NCBI GenBank assembly: GCA_016887485.1
Contig: CP069394.1
Span: forward strand, 2,604,001-2,668,000
Length of the DNA stretch: 64,000 nucleotides
Source of the DNA: Chloroflexota bacterium
GTDB lineage: Bacteria; Chloroflexota; Anaerolineae; Anaerolineales; Anaerolineaceae
Direction: 5' to 3'
A model generated the notes under the pieces. That model did not search any database and was not told the origin of the DNA. It was given only the letters and a program-made list of their open reading frames with translations. Shown in pieces: positions 37,357 through 42,414 of the stretch. The translations under genes and the position numbers were made by a program. Every line of letters starts with the position of its first letter. The first letter of the stretch is position 1.

Positions 37357-37629
37357 TTATTTTTTGCGGATCTTGAGCTTTTCGGTGAGCGCCAGATAAC
37401 GTTTGTAATCTTTACGGCGCAAGTATGCCAGTAAACGGCGGCGTTGACCAACCAACTTGAGCAGACCCCTTCGGGAACTTTCATCGTGCTTATTTACCCG
37501 GAGGTGATCTGTTAGTTGCGTGATCCGCTTGGAAAGGATTGCGATTTGGACCTCAGGGGAACCTGTGTCCTCACCATGCCGTTTGTATTCATCAATGATT
37601 TCTACTTTTGCTTCTTTTCCTAAAGCCAT
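37357..37629 (-). CDS. rpsO: 30S ribosomal protein S15
   Basis: A 90-residue S15 with the conserved [19 protein letters not shown] and [23 protein letters not shown] blocks. It binds 16S rRNA in the platform. Start at 37629 is chosen because [12 protein letters not shown] is the usual beginning and AGGAG lies 10 bp before; the frame extends upstream across the leader. Promoter at 37717-37744 gives an untranslated leader of about 80 nt, where S15 often controls its own synthesis. Confidence 0.96.
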
Positions 37630-37716
37630 GACACTGCTACTCCTTATTAGTTTTATTTTGCAGGTCTCCATGCACCCAGCCAAAATTGACCAGGTACAGG
37701 ACCAGTCACTCGTAAC

Positions 37717-37744
37717 ATTATACCAGAGAGGCACATTTATGCAA
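37717..37744 (-). promoter_or_regulatory. rpsO-pnp promoter
   Basis: TTGCAT (minus strand, 37739-37744), a 16-bp spacer and perfect TATAAT (37717-37722). Confidence 0.75.
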
Positions 37745-37759
37745 GCCTAGCTAAACGAC

Positions 37760-40279
37760 CTAACTCGTAGAATCCGGTGTCCACCTGAGTTCCAGCGATG
37801 TTCCCTGCTTTGGGGAGGAATGAATGGAAACGGAGGCATTGATGATCTTCGCTCTTTCAAAAATATTTGCCAGACCGAAGTGATGGTTCGCTAAAAGTTC
37901 GTTTATATTAGGCGGGCCCTGGAATGGCAGACCAATGCCATCATCGGTAATGCTGAGTTTGAACTCGTCTTCGGTAAACCGGCCTGTTATCAGGATTGAT
38001 TGCGCCTGAGCATGTTCGTAGGCATTATGACATGCCTGCTGGATGATGCGGTAAAGATGAAGCTCAACATTTTGATCGTAATTAAGCGGTTTGGGGACAT
38101 AGAGATTCGTTTCGATCTTGATTTTGCCGCCGATTTGTGCTTCGGGCTGATCTGCCAACTCTTCAATGGCTACATCTAAGCCCATGTCGAGGCTGGAGGG
38201 CCGTAGGCCGCTCATAATTTCCCGAACCATATCATTGATCTGCTGAACGGCTTTCTCAAACTCTTTTTGGTCGGAATTGCTGCTTTGCAATTCCACCAAG
38301 TAGCCCAGCGAGGGCAGTAAAACATCATGTAGGTCCCGGGCGAGCTCTGCTTTTTCAGCTTCTTGCCTTTCCATATTGACGTTGTAGAGCGTTTCCAATA
38401 GTTCATTTTGGTGGATGTTGAGCAGGGTTATGGCGGTTTGATTGGCCAGGGTTTTTAATATGGTTTTGAAGCCTTCATCGTAGATATTATTTGGGTCACG
38501 CCATCCGAATAGCCATACGCCTAGGAACTCATCATCCAGTGATAAGGGCAAAACAAGTTTAACCCAGGGACAGGCGTCCCAGAGGTAATTGTTTGATGGC
38601 AAGAATTTAAGCGTCTGTAGTTTTGTTGATTGGATCAGCTTCTGGCATTCTTCATCGTTGATTCCTGTTCGCAAGAAGGTTTTTGGTTGAGGCTGGCCAT
38701 CAAATAAAAGAAGAATGGATTCCCGGATCATTAAGCTGGGAAGAATTTCTTCTTTTATCAAATTGACCAGGGATGGGTGATCGAGGCTGAGCGTGATTTT
38801 CTGCGTAAATTGGTGGATTAAGTTATCTGGGGGCAATTTTATGCCAAGGATCACGCGATCAAAGAACGCCAGAAAATACTTGAAGAAAAGAACTGAAAGT
38901 CCGGTACCAACGACTGCCACAATCGATGAGAACAGAATTGTTGTGAAAGGCTCTCCTCGAAGAAGAGGAAATGATAGGAGCGCCAAAACATATAAGGGCG
39001 AGAGGAAGAATAGGAAGTTGATGAAAGCGGCTGCCCGGTTAGCGCTGAACCTTAATGTATAAGACTGGTTCTGAAAGAGGTTGATCTGATCGTTTGCAAG
39101 GGCTGGCATGATCAGCAACATTCCAAAGCCAGTTAGTCCGATTAAGAAAGTTGAACCAAAGGAGATGATTGATCGAAGAGTTGGATTTATTGAGACAGTA
39201 GGTGCAATGACCATGAAAAAGGCAAAGATGAAGGCAAGGAAGATCCCGCTGATGAAGAGTCTCATAGCCACATTGATTCGAGGAAATTCTTGTTTCAAAC
39301 TGGTTTTATAAGCTGTAAAGAAATAAAAACCTGGTATTGCAGTCAGGCCGATTATGGCGATGTTGGAATTCTGGGGGACCTTATTGATGAACATCATCAC
39401 AGCCAAGAAGATAATGGGAATAATCGCAATGATGTAGGAGCCAAGCAAGGACCACATCATTGAGCGAAGTCCCTTGAATTTAAAGAATTTAATAATTAGC
39501 AGTGTGAGAGAACTTCCCATGGACAGGATAAAACCAAGTAAATAGATCCCTGATGGAAGGAAATCTAGGATATCCAATAGGGCTAGGGTTACTGGCAGAA
39601 TATAAATTATGACACCAACCCACTTCTTCCAATTTTTAAAAGGTATTGGAAAGAGCCAATGGAGATTGATGGCGATTGGAACGCTGAGCCAAATAAAAAC
39701 ACGCATTATTTTACTTGCGGACCAATAACCAATGGATGAAATTTGACCTGCGCTGATCCAGATTGCAAAAGAAAAGAAGAAAAAGTAAAGCAGCGTTCGC
39801 GTTTTTGATCTGGGTCGGATGAAGAGAATAGCGATCAACCCGGCGGCAAAAAATGGATATGGGATGATCCAATCACCCGTAAGTCTAGCTAAAAAACTAT
39901 GCTCACTTCCAGCGGGCTTAGGCATGTCCACTTGCAATTCATCCCCATTCCTAAGCAAGGTAATATGGAGATTTTCACCTATTTCGGTTTGTATGATCGG
40001 GTTTTCTTCGAAGGAATTGTTGAAATCCTGCGGTGCTACATTGTTAATCGATAGAATAATGTCGTCTTCCTGGATAACACCACTGACAATTTCATCAACC
40101 CCCGTAACCTGCCCGTTATTGGAATTGATAAAGAATCCAATATAGGGCCTTAGGAACAACAAGGTGTAGGTGAATAAGAGCAATGTGCAAAGCACCACAA
40201 AAGATAAGAACAGCTCTGACCATTGTTTTACGGTTTCGGTTCTGATTTTGTTTAGGGAAAATTGATTTTTATTTGCCAT
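37760..40279 (-). CDS. ComP-like sensor histidine kinase (PDZ, multi-TM, HisKA_3)
   Basis: An 839-residue kinase. TM1 lies near residues 23-45, followed by an outer PDZ-like domain (EIVSGVIQEDDIILSINNV, then GENLHITLLRNG) to about residue 125, then about nine more membrane helices to roughly residue 480, a GAF-like middle region, and a NarL-type kinase core: HisKA_3 ELARDLHDVLLP with His651, N box ACHNAYEHA near 752, G1 DDGIGLP near 779 and G2 FGLANIFERAKI. This PDZ-plus-ten-TM-plus-HisKA_3 plan matches ComP, the receptor of the ComX pheromone in Bacillus. It is divergent from, and 33 bp apart from, a ComX-like peptide gene. No cognate LuxR-type regulator is adjacent. Start MANK is chosen over an upstream frame that runs into the peptide gene. 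Confidence 0.85.
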   Translation of the reverse strand: MANKNQFSLNKIRTETVKQWSELFLSFVVLCTLLLFTYTLLFLRPYIGFFINSNNGQVTGVDEIVSGVIQEDDIILSINNVAPQDFNNSFEENPIIQTEIGENLHITLLRNGDELQVDMPKPAGSEHSFLARLTGDWIIPYPFFAAGLIAILFIRPRSKTRTLLYFFFFSFAIWISAGQISSIGYWSASKIMRVFIWLSVPIAINLHWLFPIPFKNWKKWVGVIIYILPVTLALLDILDFLPSGIYLLGFILSMGSSLTLLIIKFFKFKGLRSMMWSLLGSYIIAIIPIIFLAVMMFINKVPQNSNIAIIGLTAIPGFYFFTAYKTSLKQEFPRINVAMRLFISGIFLAFIFAFFMVIAPTVSINPTLRSIISFGSTFLIGLTGFGMLLIMPALANDQINLFQNQSYTLRFSANRAAAFINFLFFLSPLYVLALLSFPLLRGEPFTTILFSSIVAVVGTGLSVLFFKYFLAFFDRVILGIKLPPDNLIHQFTQKITLSLDHPSLVNLIKEEILPSLMIRESILLLFDGQPQPKTFLRTGINDEECQKLIQSTKLQTLKFLPSNNYLWDACPWVKLVLPLSLDDEFLGVWLFGWRDPNNIYDEGFKTILKTLANQTAITLLNIHQNELLETLYNVNMERQEAEKAELARDLHDVLLPSLGYLVELQSSNSDQKEFEKAVQQINDMVREIMSGLRPSSLDMGLDVAIEELADQPEAQIGGKIKIETNLYVPKPLNYDQNVELHLYRIIQQACHNAYEHAQAQSILITGRFTEDEFKLSITDDGIGLPFQGPPNINELLANHHFGLANIFERAKIINASVSIHSSPKQGTSLELRWTPDSTS

Positions 40280-40312
40280 TATGAAATTCCCGATAGAAAG
40301 GAGGTGAGACTG

Positions 40313-40459
40313 ATGAAAGAATTTTACAACCAGCTTCAACAAGCTGAACAGAAGCAAGATGCCAGGCTATCTCAATTGGCCAAAGTTTGTAAGACCGAAT
40401 TGAGTGAAATTCTGGCGAACAATTCGTTGGATCCCTGGACCTGGTGGACCGAGGAATAG
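40313..40459 (+). CDS. ComX-like pheromone precursor peptide (Trp-rich C-terminus)
   Basis: A 48-residue peptide with a near-perfect ribosome site (AAAGGAGGTGA, 40298-40308). The N-terminal two-thirds is a charged Gln/Lys/Glu-rich helix with one Cys; the C-terminus is NNSLDPWTWWTEE, with Trp at 42, 44 and 45. ComX precursors in Bacillus are of similar length (about 55), poorly conserved, and carry a Trp a few residues from the end that ComQ prenylates before release of the C-terminal fragment. Here W45 lies four residues from the end. The prenyl-transferase gene begins 2 bp downstream and a ComP-like receptor is divergent. The assignment rests on context plus this Trp tail, not on strong similarity. 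Confidence 0.7.
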   Translation: MKEFYNQLQQAEQKQDARLSQLAKVCKTELSEILANNSLDPWTWWTEE

Positions 40460-40461
40460 AA

Positions 40462-41442
40462 TTGACTGGATGTGCCGGTAATTTTGCCGAATTATCGGCA
40501 CTCCCTCAGGAAGAGAGAAAAATGTACCAAAAGATCACACAATATTTACAGGATGATGAATTTATTAACCCATGGCCTGACCTGATGCAGTTTGTCATTA
40601 GGATTATAAACGATAAACCTAAGCATATTTTAATCCCGGGTTTAATTGCGGCGGCTTATGATGGCGTAATTGAAAAGCAGGTTATGGCGAATGCATCTCT
40701 CACATTGCTCTTCTCCGCAATTATCTCTGTGGATAGTATTTTGGATGGCGATGAGGTTGGTCCAACGGCGGGGCATTCTTGTGGTGAGCTTGCCAATACG
40801 AGCCTTGGTCTGGCTGGATGGGCGGCCCATGTCCTCAGAAGGCTCTCGGAGGCGTCGCATCAATATAAAGATGGTATTGAGACAATTTCCAGGGTGTTAT
40901 ATCAGGTTTCGTTCGGTCAGGCTTTGGACGCAAGTAACCCTGAAACGGAAGAGGCCTATTGGCAGCTGGCAGTGATGAAAAGCGGCGCGTTTTTCTTCGG
41001 GGCGTTCTCACTGGGCGGTCTCGTGGGTGGCGCCTCTGCTGCTGATCTCACACGCTTATCGGCGCTGGGGCAATATTACGGTGTGATGCTCCAGCTCCAT
41101 GATGATCTGCGCGACGCCCTGGAAGCGCCGGCGAACTCAGATTGGTTGAATGGGCGTTATACCCTCCCGATCCTTTATGCACACTTGGTGGATCACCCGG
41201 AACGGGAGCGTTTTGATGCCATTCGGCTGCAGGTTACTGACAGCCTCAAGTTGGAAGAAGCCCAATCCATTCTGATTCGGTCGGGAGCCTTAAGTTACGG
41301 TTTATATCAAATTCAGATGCTGGATGAACAAGTGGCAATGGAACTGGAAGGGCTGAGCACTATAAATGATGGCGAGATTCGGCGAATGTTCGCGGAATTG
41401 GTTCGTCCGGTTGAGCAGTTGCTGGATGTTGTGGCTGTTTAA
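40462..41442 (+). CDS. ComQ-like isoprenyl (polyprenyl synthetase fold) transferase
   Basis: A 326-residue all-helical polyprenyl-synthetase-fold protein. The first Asp-rich motif reads D91-SIL-D95-GD, the second DDLRD at 214-218, and the intervening FGQALD at 151-156 is also family-typical. ComQ uses such a site to attach geranyl or farnesyl to the Trp of ComX. The start is TTG with GAGGA 6 bp upstream, lying 2 bp after the ComX-like stop; GTG 40444 (inside the peptide gene) and ATG 40522 are alternatives. A conventional polyprenyl diphosphate synthase is the alternative reading, but the adjacent Trp-rich peptide and ComP-like kinase favour ComQ. Convergent with dus. Confidence 0.75.
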   Translation: MTGCAGNFAELSALPQEERKMYQKITQYLQDDEFINPWPDLMQFVIRIINDKPKHILIPGLIAAAYDGVIEKQVMANASLTLLFSAIISVDSILDGDEVGPTAGHSCGELANTSLGLAGWAAHVLRRLSEASHQYKDGIETISRVLYQVSFGQALDASNPETEEAYWQLAVMKSGAFFFGAFSLGGLVGGASAADLTRLSALGQYYGVMLQLHDDLRDALEAPANSDWLNGRYTLPILYAHLVDHPERERFDAIRLQVTDSLKLEEAQSILIRSGALSYGLYQIQMLDEQVAMELEGLSTINDGEIRRMFAELVRPVEQLLDVVAV

Positions 41443-41454
41443 TCGAGTTGAAGT

Positions 41455-42414
41455 TTAGAGAAGGGAGAAGATCCGGGTGATTTCCGAATGAACGACATCC
41501 TGATCTTTTTCTTTTAATAGAGCAAGCAGCTCCTCGCGGGGAATGGAGTAGGGCGCAAGGTAAGCTTTCAGATATTTTCGAAAAGTAATTACTCCCTGTT
41601 CACCGTAATGGGCCACGATGGTTTTGAAATGGGTCAAGATGGTTTGCAGTGCGTCCTGCGGACTCACCTGATCCCGGTCCAGGCGGCTGAAGATCCAGGG
41701 GTTGGACACAGCCGCACGGCCAATCATTACCGCATCACAGCCGGTTTCCTGCTTGATCCGCTCAATATCCGCCACCGTTACAACGTCACCGTTGCCAATC
41801 ACCGGAATATGTAAGGCTTGTTTGACCTCTCTGATTGGTTCCCAGATGGCCTGACCTCGATAGGCTTGTTTGCGCGTCCGGCCATGCACTGCAACCATTG
41901 CGCCACCGTTATCTTCAATGATTTTTGCTACCTCAAGATAGTTCAGTGAGCCATCATCCCAACCCAACCGGATCTTGCCAGTCACGGGGATGGTGAATTC
42001 ACGGGTCATGAGTGCGAAGATCCGGGCGATATCTTCGGGCTTGCGCAGTAGGGCCGCACCAGCGCCACGGGAGGTCACGTTTTTGGATTGACACCCCAGG
42101 TTGATGTCCAGAATATCAGGTTTGACATCTTCGACCAATGGGACCGCTGCAGTGAGCATCCTTTCGGGGTCGTTCCCGAGGATTTGGAGGGAGACCGGGC
42201 GTTGATCTTCGGTGAAGATGGTTCGCTTGGGGTAGCGGGGATTGTCTTCAATCACATCCAGGGCGTTGATGAATTCCGTCACGACCATTGCTGACCCCAA
42301 CCCGCGGCAAAGTGCACGGAAGGGATTATCGGTGATTCCGTCCATGGGCGCCAGGATCAGGTCCCCAAAAATAGGCACGGAGCCGATCATGAAGGTGGGT
42401 TCTTTGGTGTTCAT
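41455..42414 (-). CDS. tRNA-dihydrouridine synthase
   Basis: A 319-residue FMN enzyme that reduces uridines in tRNA. It shows LAPMDGITDNPFRALCR near the start, DINLGCQSKNVTSRGAGAALL with the catalytic Cys, GKIRLGWDD, VHGRTRKQAYRG and IGNGDVVTVADIE, ending in phosphate-binding MIGRAAVSNPWIF. The style is DusB/Dus1-like; the exact uridine position cannot be given. It overlaps queG by 4 bp, so two tRNA-modifying enzymes are cotranscribed. Confidence 0.93.
   Translation of the reverse strand: MNTKEPTFMIGSVPIFGDLILAPMDGITDNPFRALCRGLGSAMVVTEFINALDVIEDNPRYPKRTIFTEDQRPVSLQILGNDPERMLTAAVPLVEDVKPDILDINLGCQSKNVTSRGAGAALLRKPEDIARIFALMTREFTIPVTGKIRLGWDDGSLNYLEVAKIIEDNGGAMVAVHGRTRKQAYRGQAIWEPIREVKQALHIPVIGNGDVVTVADIERIKQETGCDAVMIGRAAVSNPWIFSRLDRDQVSPQDALQTILTHFKTIVAHYGEQGVITFRKYLKAYLAPYSIPREELLALLKEKDQDVVHSEITRIFSLL

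Follow-up and report, generated by a model that had tools for sequence, protein, structure and literature searches.

Is signalling by prenylated peptides, as performed by the ComQXPA system of Bacillus, restricted to the Firmicutes? The question is raised by a locus in a stretch of 64,000 nucleotides (hereafter, the window) of a Chloroflexota bacterium (assembly GCA_016887485.1, contig CP069394.1), in which the genes for a ComP-like sensor histidine kinase, a 48-residue peptide with a tryptophan-rich end and an enzyme with the polyprenyl-synthetase fold stand together. A 2014 census found comQXPA in no phylum outside the Firmicutes (PMC4008528), and a 2022 survey reported a histidine kinase-response regulator pair in Chloroflexi and the full pathway in Clostridia (PMC8895600). 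No report of such Chloroflexota loci was found in the literature searched, which included neither subscription papers nor preprints. We propose that the cassette encodes a signalling system based on a Trp-prenylated peptide that would work like Bacillus ComQXPA, with prenylation and sensing inferred from the genes, and we give this reading a probability of about two in three (0.66) because of the parts present, their conservation, their linkage and the empty site found in related genomes.

The kinase, peptide and enzyme genes lie where the original prediction had placed them, as sequence and Pfam confirm, and their rearranged order, with P divergent from X-Q, is visible in the layout:

37735..41454, no strand assigned: whole cassette, 3720 bp, from rpsO (open reading frame 37357-37734) to dus (41455-42414)
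37760..40279, minus strand: ComP-like sensor histidine kinase, 839 amino acids, start ATG at 40279 (sequence, Pfam, model)
40295..40307, plus strand: ribosome site of the peptide gene, AGAAAGGAGGTGA, very strong (sequence)
40313..40459, plus strand: putative ComX-like precursor peptide, 48 amino acids, C-terminus PWTWWTEE (frame, conservation)
40436..40447, plus strand: WTWW, the WxxW motif (W42, W45), proposed prenylation site (alignment of relatives)
40508..40517, plus strand: ribosome site of the enzyme gene, AGGAAGAGAG (sequence)
40522..41442, plus strand: ComQ-like enzyme with the polyprenyl-synthetase fold, 306 amino acids; the open frame reaches upstream to 40444
40732..40752, plus strand: first aspartate motif, DSILDGD (D71, D75 and D77 invariant in 26 relatives)
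41092..41115, plus strand: second aspartate motif with the preceding glutamine, QLHDDLRD (Q191, D194, D195 and D198 invariant in 26)

Only 33 bp separate the kinase ATG (40279) from the divergent peptide ATG (40313), and the strength claimed for the ribosome site of the peptide gene was borne out. The enzyme had been said to begin 2 bp after the peptide; the frame is indeed open from 40462, but the near-invariant start methionine of 26 aligned relatives falls on the ATG at 40522, the best start, just upstream of which a separate ribosome site is found; the gap from the peptide stop is then 62 bp.

Small open reading frames (ORFs) upstream of the enzyme genes were picked by ATG, Shine-Dalgarno sequence and position alone, tryptophan playing no part in the choice. 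Such a frame, of 38-85 codons and with a ribosome site, was present in 43 of 47 loci of the enzyme family; all 43 have a tryptophan within the last 25 residues and 39 carry WxxW. In the controls, a frame was found upstream of 5 of 25 ordinary GKxxR synthase genes (one with tryptophan) and of 36 of 367 other genes of the same loci (16 with tryptophan), and WxxW was found in none of them. The original prediction had named the lack of the peptide frame in relatives as a ground for abandoning it; both the frame and its tryptophan (43/43) proved to be conserved. As for the four loci missing from the count, the peptide of L100 ends in VPSWF and has a weaker ribosome site, the frame of L113 is longer and doubtful, L116 is cut by a contig end, and L103 is discussed below. 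The tryptophan tail noticed at the outset lies near the peptide end as described, the conserved feature being the WxxW pair (W42, W45) and the W44 of the window an additional residue. Across 23 aligned peptides, W42 is the sole invariant residue, with F4 and W45 nearly so, and the tails of relatives read, for example, LGWQDW, PWFIWGEN, TWAIWSTD, AWDGWG, GWVGWW and SWMGWGY; some are longer past WxxW (e.g., L039 and L097), and the related loci L099, L102 and L110 keep a single tryptophan, as VGW plus one residue. In the window, W45 is fourth from the C-terminal end, taken as within the 5-10-residue range for a ComX-type tryptophan.

The window peptide and that of G022, a genome of the same genus, are identical at 31 of 48 residues, with a ratio of non-synonymous to synonymous substitution rates (Ka/Ks) of 0.14; values of 0.12-0.38 in 11 of 12 pairs (the remaining pair being saturated) indicate that the frame is under purifying selection. 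Searches of Pfam, NCBIfam and PHROGs returned no usable family name for the peptide. The Pfam ComX model (PF05952) matched none of 23 peptides and nothing in the window's own genome, the B. subtilis positive control likewise falling below the cut-off, and leader families, including the NHLP type, matched neither the window peptide nor 22 relatives.

The enzyme matches polyprenyl_synt (PF00348; E 4.7e-14). In a tree with 32 further PF00348 proteins from this phylum, a starred branch separates off the 46 family members; the tree was built by a quick method and places the window enzyme on a long branch, and 7 of the 32 are themselves divergent and non-canonical. The motif GKxxR, which binds isopentenyl diphosphate in chain-elongating synthases, is found in 1 of the 46 family enzymes versus 26 of the 32 others. 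Tree and motif counts thus indicate a separate clade that has lost the GKxxR of chain-elongating synthases, and the enzyme falls outside the ordinary polyprenyl diphosphate synthases, as the original prediction needed. Both aspartate motifs are retained: all 26 enzymes of the alignment have D71, D75, D77, K153, Q191, D194, D195 and D198, among them the essential first and fifth aspartates (D71, D75) of the first motif, and the second motif, DDLRD in the window, is DDxxD in the 45 family members covering the site. The enzyme model (mean predicted local distance difference test, pLDDT, 93) has the prenyl-synthase fold, with structural matches up to Z 29.8, and aligns with the structure of Ord1 (9v4h) at Z 26.7 and a root-mean-square deviation of 3.3 over 280 residues; canonical synthases score equally or higher (top Z 29.8) and also carry Q-x-x-D-D, so the fold match to Trp prenyltransferases is not discriminating. 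The own genome (2.9 Mb, two contigs) holds one further PF00348 gene, of ordinary type, and tblastn of the enzyme against plasmids gave no match.

The kinase follows a plan of one transmembrane (TM) helix, a PDZ-like loop, about ten further TM segments, a GAF-like region, HisKA_3 and HATPase_c, and both hydropathy and the structural model show a plan similar to that of ComP; for the ComP of B. amyloliquefaciens, ten TM helices and a PDZ-like loop after the first have been predicted (PMC9620489). Of the ComP likeness originally claimed, the multi-TM build, HATPase_c (1.8e-9) and the overall plan hold well, but HisKA_3 (9.7e-4; 20.1 bits) stays below its cut-off of 24 and PDZ_2 reaches just 0.023. 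Because this PDZ_2 score is weak, the PDZ assignment leans mainly on the strands 49-120 of a model of medium confidence (mean pLDDT 74), whose 50 best listed Foldseek matches are to the kinase domain and are uninformative on the loop. H651, N752 and the G-box residues are invariant in 25 kinases, and among type A relatives (defined below) HisKA_3 was detected in 19 of 25 and PDZ_2 in 2 of 25.

Two layouts occur among the 48 loci collected: type A, that of the window (30/48), and type B, in which peptide, enzyme and kinase follow one another in this order on the same strand or a remnant of the arrangement is left (18/48). A kinase is adjacent in 44 of the 48 (29/30 type A and 15/18 type B); that of L061 lies 1.2 kb away, and two of the three type B misses are contig ends. 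The original prediction had also been staked on the enzyme not occurring without its partners, and it is indeed seldom found without peptide (ORF in 43/47) and kinase (44/48). Three type B kinases that were scanned are of the HisKA/HATPase_c type with GAF signals, unlike the HisKA_3 of type A. Covariation of peptide and receptor, a check proposed with the original prediction, was examined by Mantel tests in type A loci: with the catalytic domain controlled, the TM region of the kinase correlates with the peptide tail (partial r 0.24, p 0.001, 28 loci), a correlation that does not hold when enzyme distance is controlled instead (see below). Of the 30 type A loci, 27 include an adjacent response regulator, which follows the enzyme in 26 cases and lies on the far side of the kinase in L056; the three lacking it are the window, G022 and a locus at a contig end. 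Response_reg was found in all five regulator candidates scanned, GerE being below cut-off in two of them. One clear ortholog is encoded, unlinked, in the own genome (G000:C1:190466-191119; 44% identity, 201 bits versus 52 for the next match), and G022 too has one elsewhere; linkage and orthology indicate that a ComA-type regulator (Response_reg plus GerE), which the original prediction had not noticed, belongs to the gene set.

Two observations concern the kinases and their neighbours. Kinases matching the C-terminal half of the window kinase with 35-39% identity were seen at L170 (G060), L171 (G058) and L172 (G057), in stretches where no PF00348 gene was recognised; a regulator-like gene precedes the G060 kinase. 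Furthermore, in 15 compared loci (L036, L040, L042, L043, L045, L047, L049-L051, L053, L054, L057, L060, L062 and L095) a gene of about 340-560 codons, measured as open frames and without counterpart in the window, directly follows the kinase on the same strand. Four of seven scanned (L036, L040, L042 and L047) gave weak scores, all below cut-off, for the helix-turn-helix (HTH) family HTH_31, and the gene may be an output regulator.

The 27 confirmed loci in named species genomes are all titled Chloroflexota or a subgroup of it, in agreement with the host group proposed at the outset. The scan of these genomes, by which alone phyla beyond Chloroflexota were covered, used a profile of two sequences, from the window and from G056, and is not exhaustive, being seeded by a pair of short motifs. 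Within the class Anaerolineae, where the gene set recurs, 25 of 396 genomes match at E <=1e-40, the next match being a fragment at 9e-29; in a phylum sample, 6 of 400 genomes match a 26-sequence profile at E <1e-100, one of them, G541, outside the class. In the window's family (147 genomes), the enzyme-kinase pair occurs only in the own genome, in G056 and, damaged, in G022. As regards the counts, L058 and L093 (as L057), L094 (as L049), L096 (as L060), L098 (as L061) and L033 (as L056) were dropped as repeats; L117, an enzyme fragment beside a kinase, and L118-L122, with other enzyme types, stand outside the 48 loci; L034, the G022 locus with its deleted enzyme, is counted among the 48 and left out of the 47 examined for upstream ORFs.

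The chromosomal site was compared within the genus, where dus was located in 12 of 16 genomes. In all ten of these besides the own genome and G022, rpsO adjoins dus: the matched parts are 73-483 bp apart, and the rpsO-dus stretch contains nothing that matches the kinase or the enzyme. With the site empty in these ten genomes, kinase, peptide and enzyme are present or absent as a unit. The GC content of the cassette (0.45) differs modestly from the mean of the sequence windows with which it was compared (0.51, standard deviation 0.03). In G022 (L006, L034) the kinase and the peptide are intact and the enzyme gene is internally deleted; this relative may be a receiver no longer making the signal, or the deletion may stem from an assembly fault.

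In the mechanism that we propose, the 48-residue precursor would be made in the cytoplasm, as its conserved gene and strong ribosome site suggest. The ComQ-like enzyme, devoid of a GKxxR site, would isoprenylate a tryptophan within the C-terminal WxxW, and the modified tail would be released and leave the cell. The PDZ/multi-TM part of the divergent kinase would sense it from outside, and the kinase would pass phosphate to the ComA-type response regulator, the genes for both being present. With ComQXPA the locus shares an enzyme of the prenyl-synthase fold and a short peptide with a near-C-terminal tryptophan (PMC4008528), as well as a multi-TM PDZ-type HisKA_3 kinase and a GerE-type regulator (PMC4008528, PMC9620489). 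It differs in its host phylum, Chloroflexota versus the Firmicutes of the 2014 census (PMC4008528), and in the WxxW pair of its peptides; these gave no match to the Pfam ComX model, for which the control was weak. A precedent is PalQ/PalX/PalP of Paenibacillus alvei, which shows that Trp prenylation can be the function of such a trio of kinase, Trp-ended peptide and divergent enzyme of the prenyl-synthase fold: PalQ prenylates a C-terminal tryptophan, keeps two second-motif aspartates and is active without these aspartates (PMC10853753). The window shares with it the histidine kinase, the Trp-ended precursor and the divergent enzyme with second-motif aspartates (PMC10853753); PalX carries an NHLP leader and has tryptophan as its very last residue, whereas the window peptide has no leader match and three residues after W45. 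In Ord1 and its kin, according to a 2026 review, the glutamine before the second motif and the first aspartate of that motif belong to a Trp-binding network (PMC13290415). The window enzyme shares the fold and both residues (Q191 and D194, invariant), but Ord1 farnesylates free tryptophan (PMC13290415), unlike the peptide substrate proposed here.

Several points weigh against signalling of the ComQXPA kind or against use of that name. The gene order of ComQXPA is Q-X-P-A on one strand, while here P is divergent from X-Q and A convergent or unlinked. The second motif is DDxxD instead of NDxxx or GDxxx, one of which Bacillus ComQ is said to need, and a review regards DDxxD as unsuited to Trp prenylation by ComQ (PMC5331326). 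In the first motif, residue 72 is serine (S72) in the window enzyme and aspartate in nearly all relatives. No regulator stands beside the window locus or near any of the 18 type B loci; at L059 no kinase lies within the 6 kb examined, and at L103 the enzyme is present with neither peptide nor kinase found. No exporter or protease is conserved in the flanks. When enzyme distance is controlled, the Mantel correlation of TM region and tail falls to 0.08 (p 0.18, 27 loci), and the PDZ region shows no correlation with the peptide tail in type A loci. Since gene order and second motif differ, literal membership in comQXPA is not supported; this affects the name and not the mechanism.

Among the alternatives, the cassette could make a prenylated, ribosomally synthesized and post-translationally modified peptide with another job, such as an antimicrobial or membrane-active lipopeptide, whose production the linked two-component system monitors or induces. 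Identical chemistry would be reflected in an identical set of three genes, and L118 pairs a related enzyme and a kinase with a PF14407 leader (E 1.7e-7, below the family cut-off); yet the flanks show no recurrent family for immunity, transport or proteolysis, the HTH gene being the only other recurrent neighbour, and kinase and regulator are near-constant partners in type A, which leaves this explanation with roughly the odds of one throw of a die. A little less probable still is an enzyme making a diffusible isoprenoid, or an unmodified peptide acting as its subunit or activator, with the kinase sensing the isoprenoid or the membrane: the diphosphate-synthase fold and both aspartate motifs would suit it, whereas GKxxR is gone in 45 of 46 enzymes and the C-terminal tryptophan pair is kept while much else of the peptide varies. 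Finally, the three genes might be neighbours by chance, the synthase being ordinary, the short frame spurious and the kinase unrelated. Nothing beyond the shortness of the frame and its lack of a family match suggests this, and it is refuted by the conservation, as well as by the linkage and selection seen across dozens of loci and by the genes being absent together from the empty site.

If signalling by a Trp-prenylated peptide is correct, prenyl-peptide quorum sensing would extend to a phylum with few known signals. The loci would then supply dozens of natural combinations of enzyme, peptide and receptor in which to study how Trp is prenylated and how receptors gain their specificity, and a fresh source of enzymes that lipidate peptides; the two layouts, the empty site and the enzyme-deleted relative make gain, loss and cheating testable. 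More speculatively, and with the balance tilting somewhat against it, Chloroflexota might have derived lipid-peptide pheromones of their own from housekeeping prenyl synthases, on more than one occasion and separately from Bacillus ComQXPA. The signal of the main class would then be the paired WxxW, in which an enzyme keeping both aspartate motifs prenylates one tryptophan or both, and the cassette would come and go at a fixed chromosomal site.

Other divergent enzymes of the prenyl-synthase fold, linked to kinases or regulators and accompanied by Trp-ended small frames of other kinds, were observed in the phylum at L035, L118, L121, L122, L173 and L174. Small frames end in KCGWFVAN in G060 (with a PDZ_6 kinase, 4.5e-7), in KSRWTQ in G002 (with a regulator beside), in KYGWF in G167 and in DFPWG, with a PF14407 leader, in G233; in G057, enzyme, kinase and regulator stand in a row and no peptide was identified. 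These cases hint that the prenyl-synthase fold has been repeatedly recruited to peptide partners.

In the kinase-peptide intergenic regions of type A loci, AAGGAGGTGGTTCGATTATAGC (<=4 mismatches) occurs in 12 of 30, only at 80-121 nt before the peptide ATG, and in none after one shuffle of each region; of 28 loci, 22 have AGGAGGTG in the 450 nt upstream. The intergenic element contains a nearly perfect complement to the 3' end of the 16S RNA and, on the kinase strand, has the sequence TATAAT; it may be an operator, a kinase promoter or a mini-frame.

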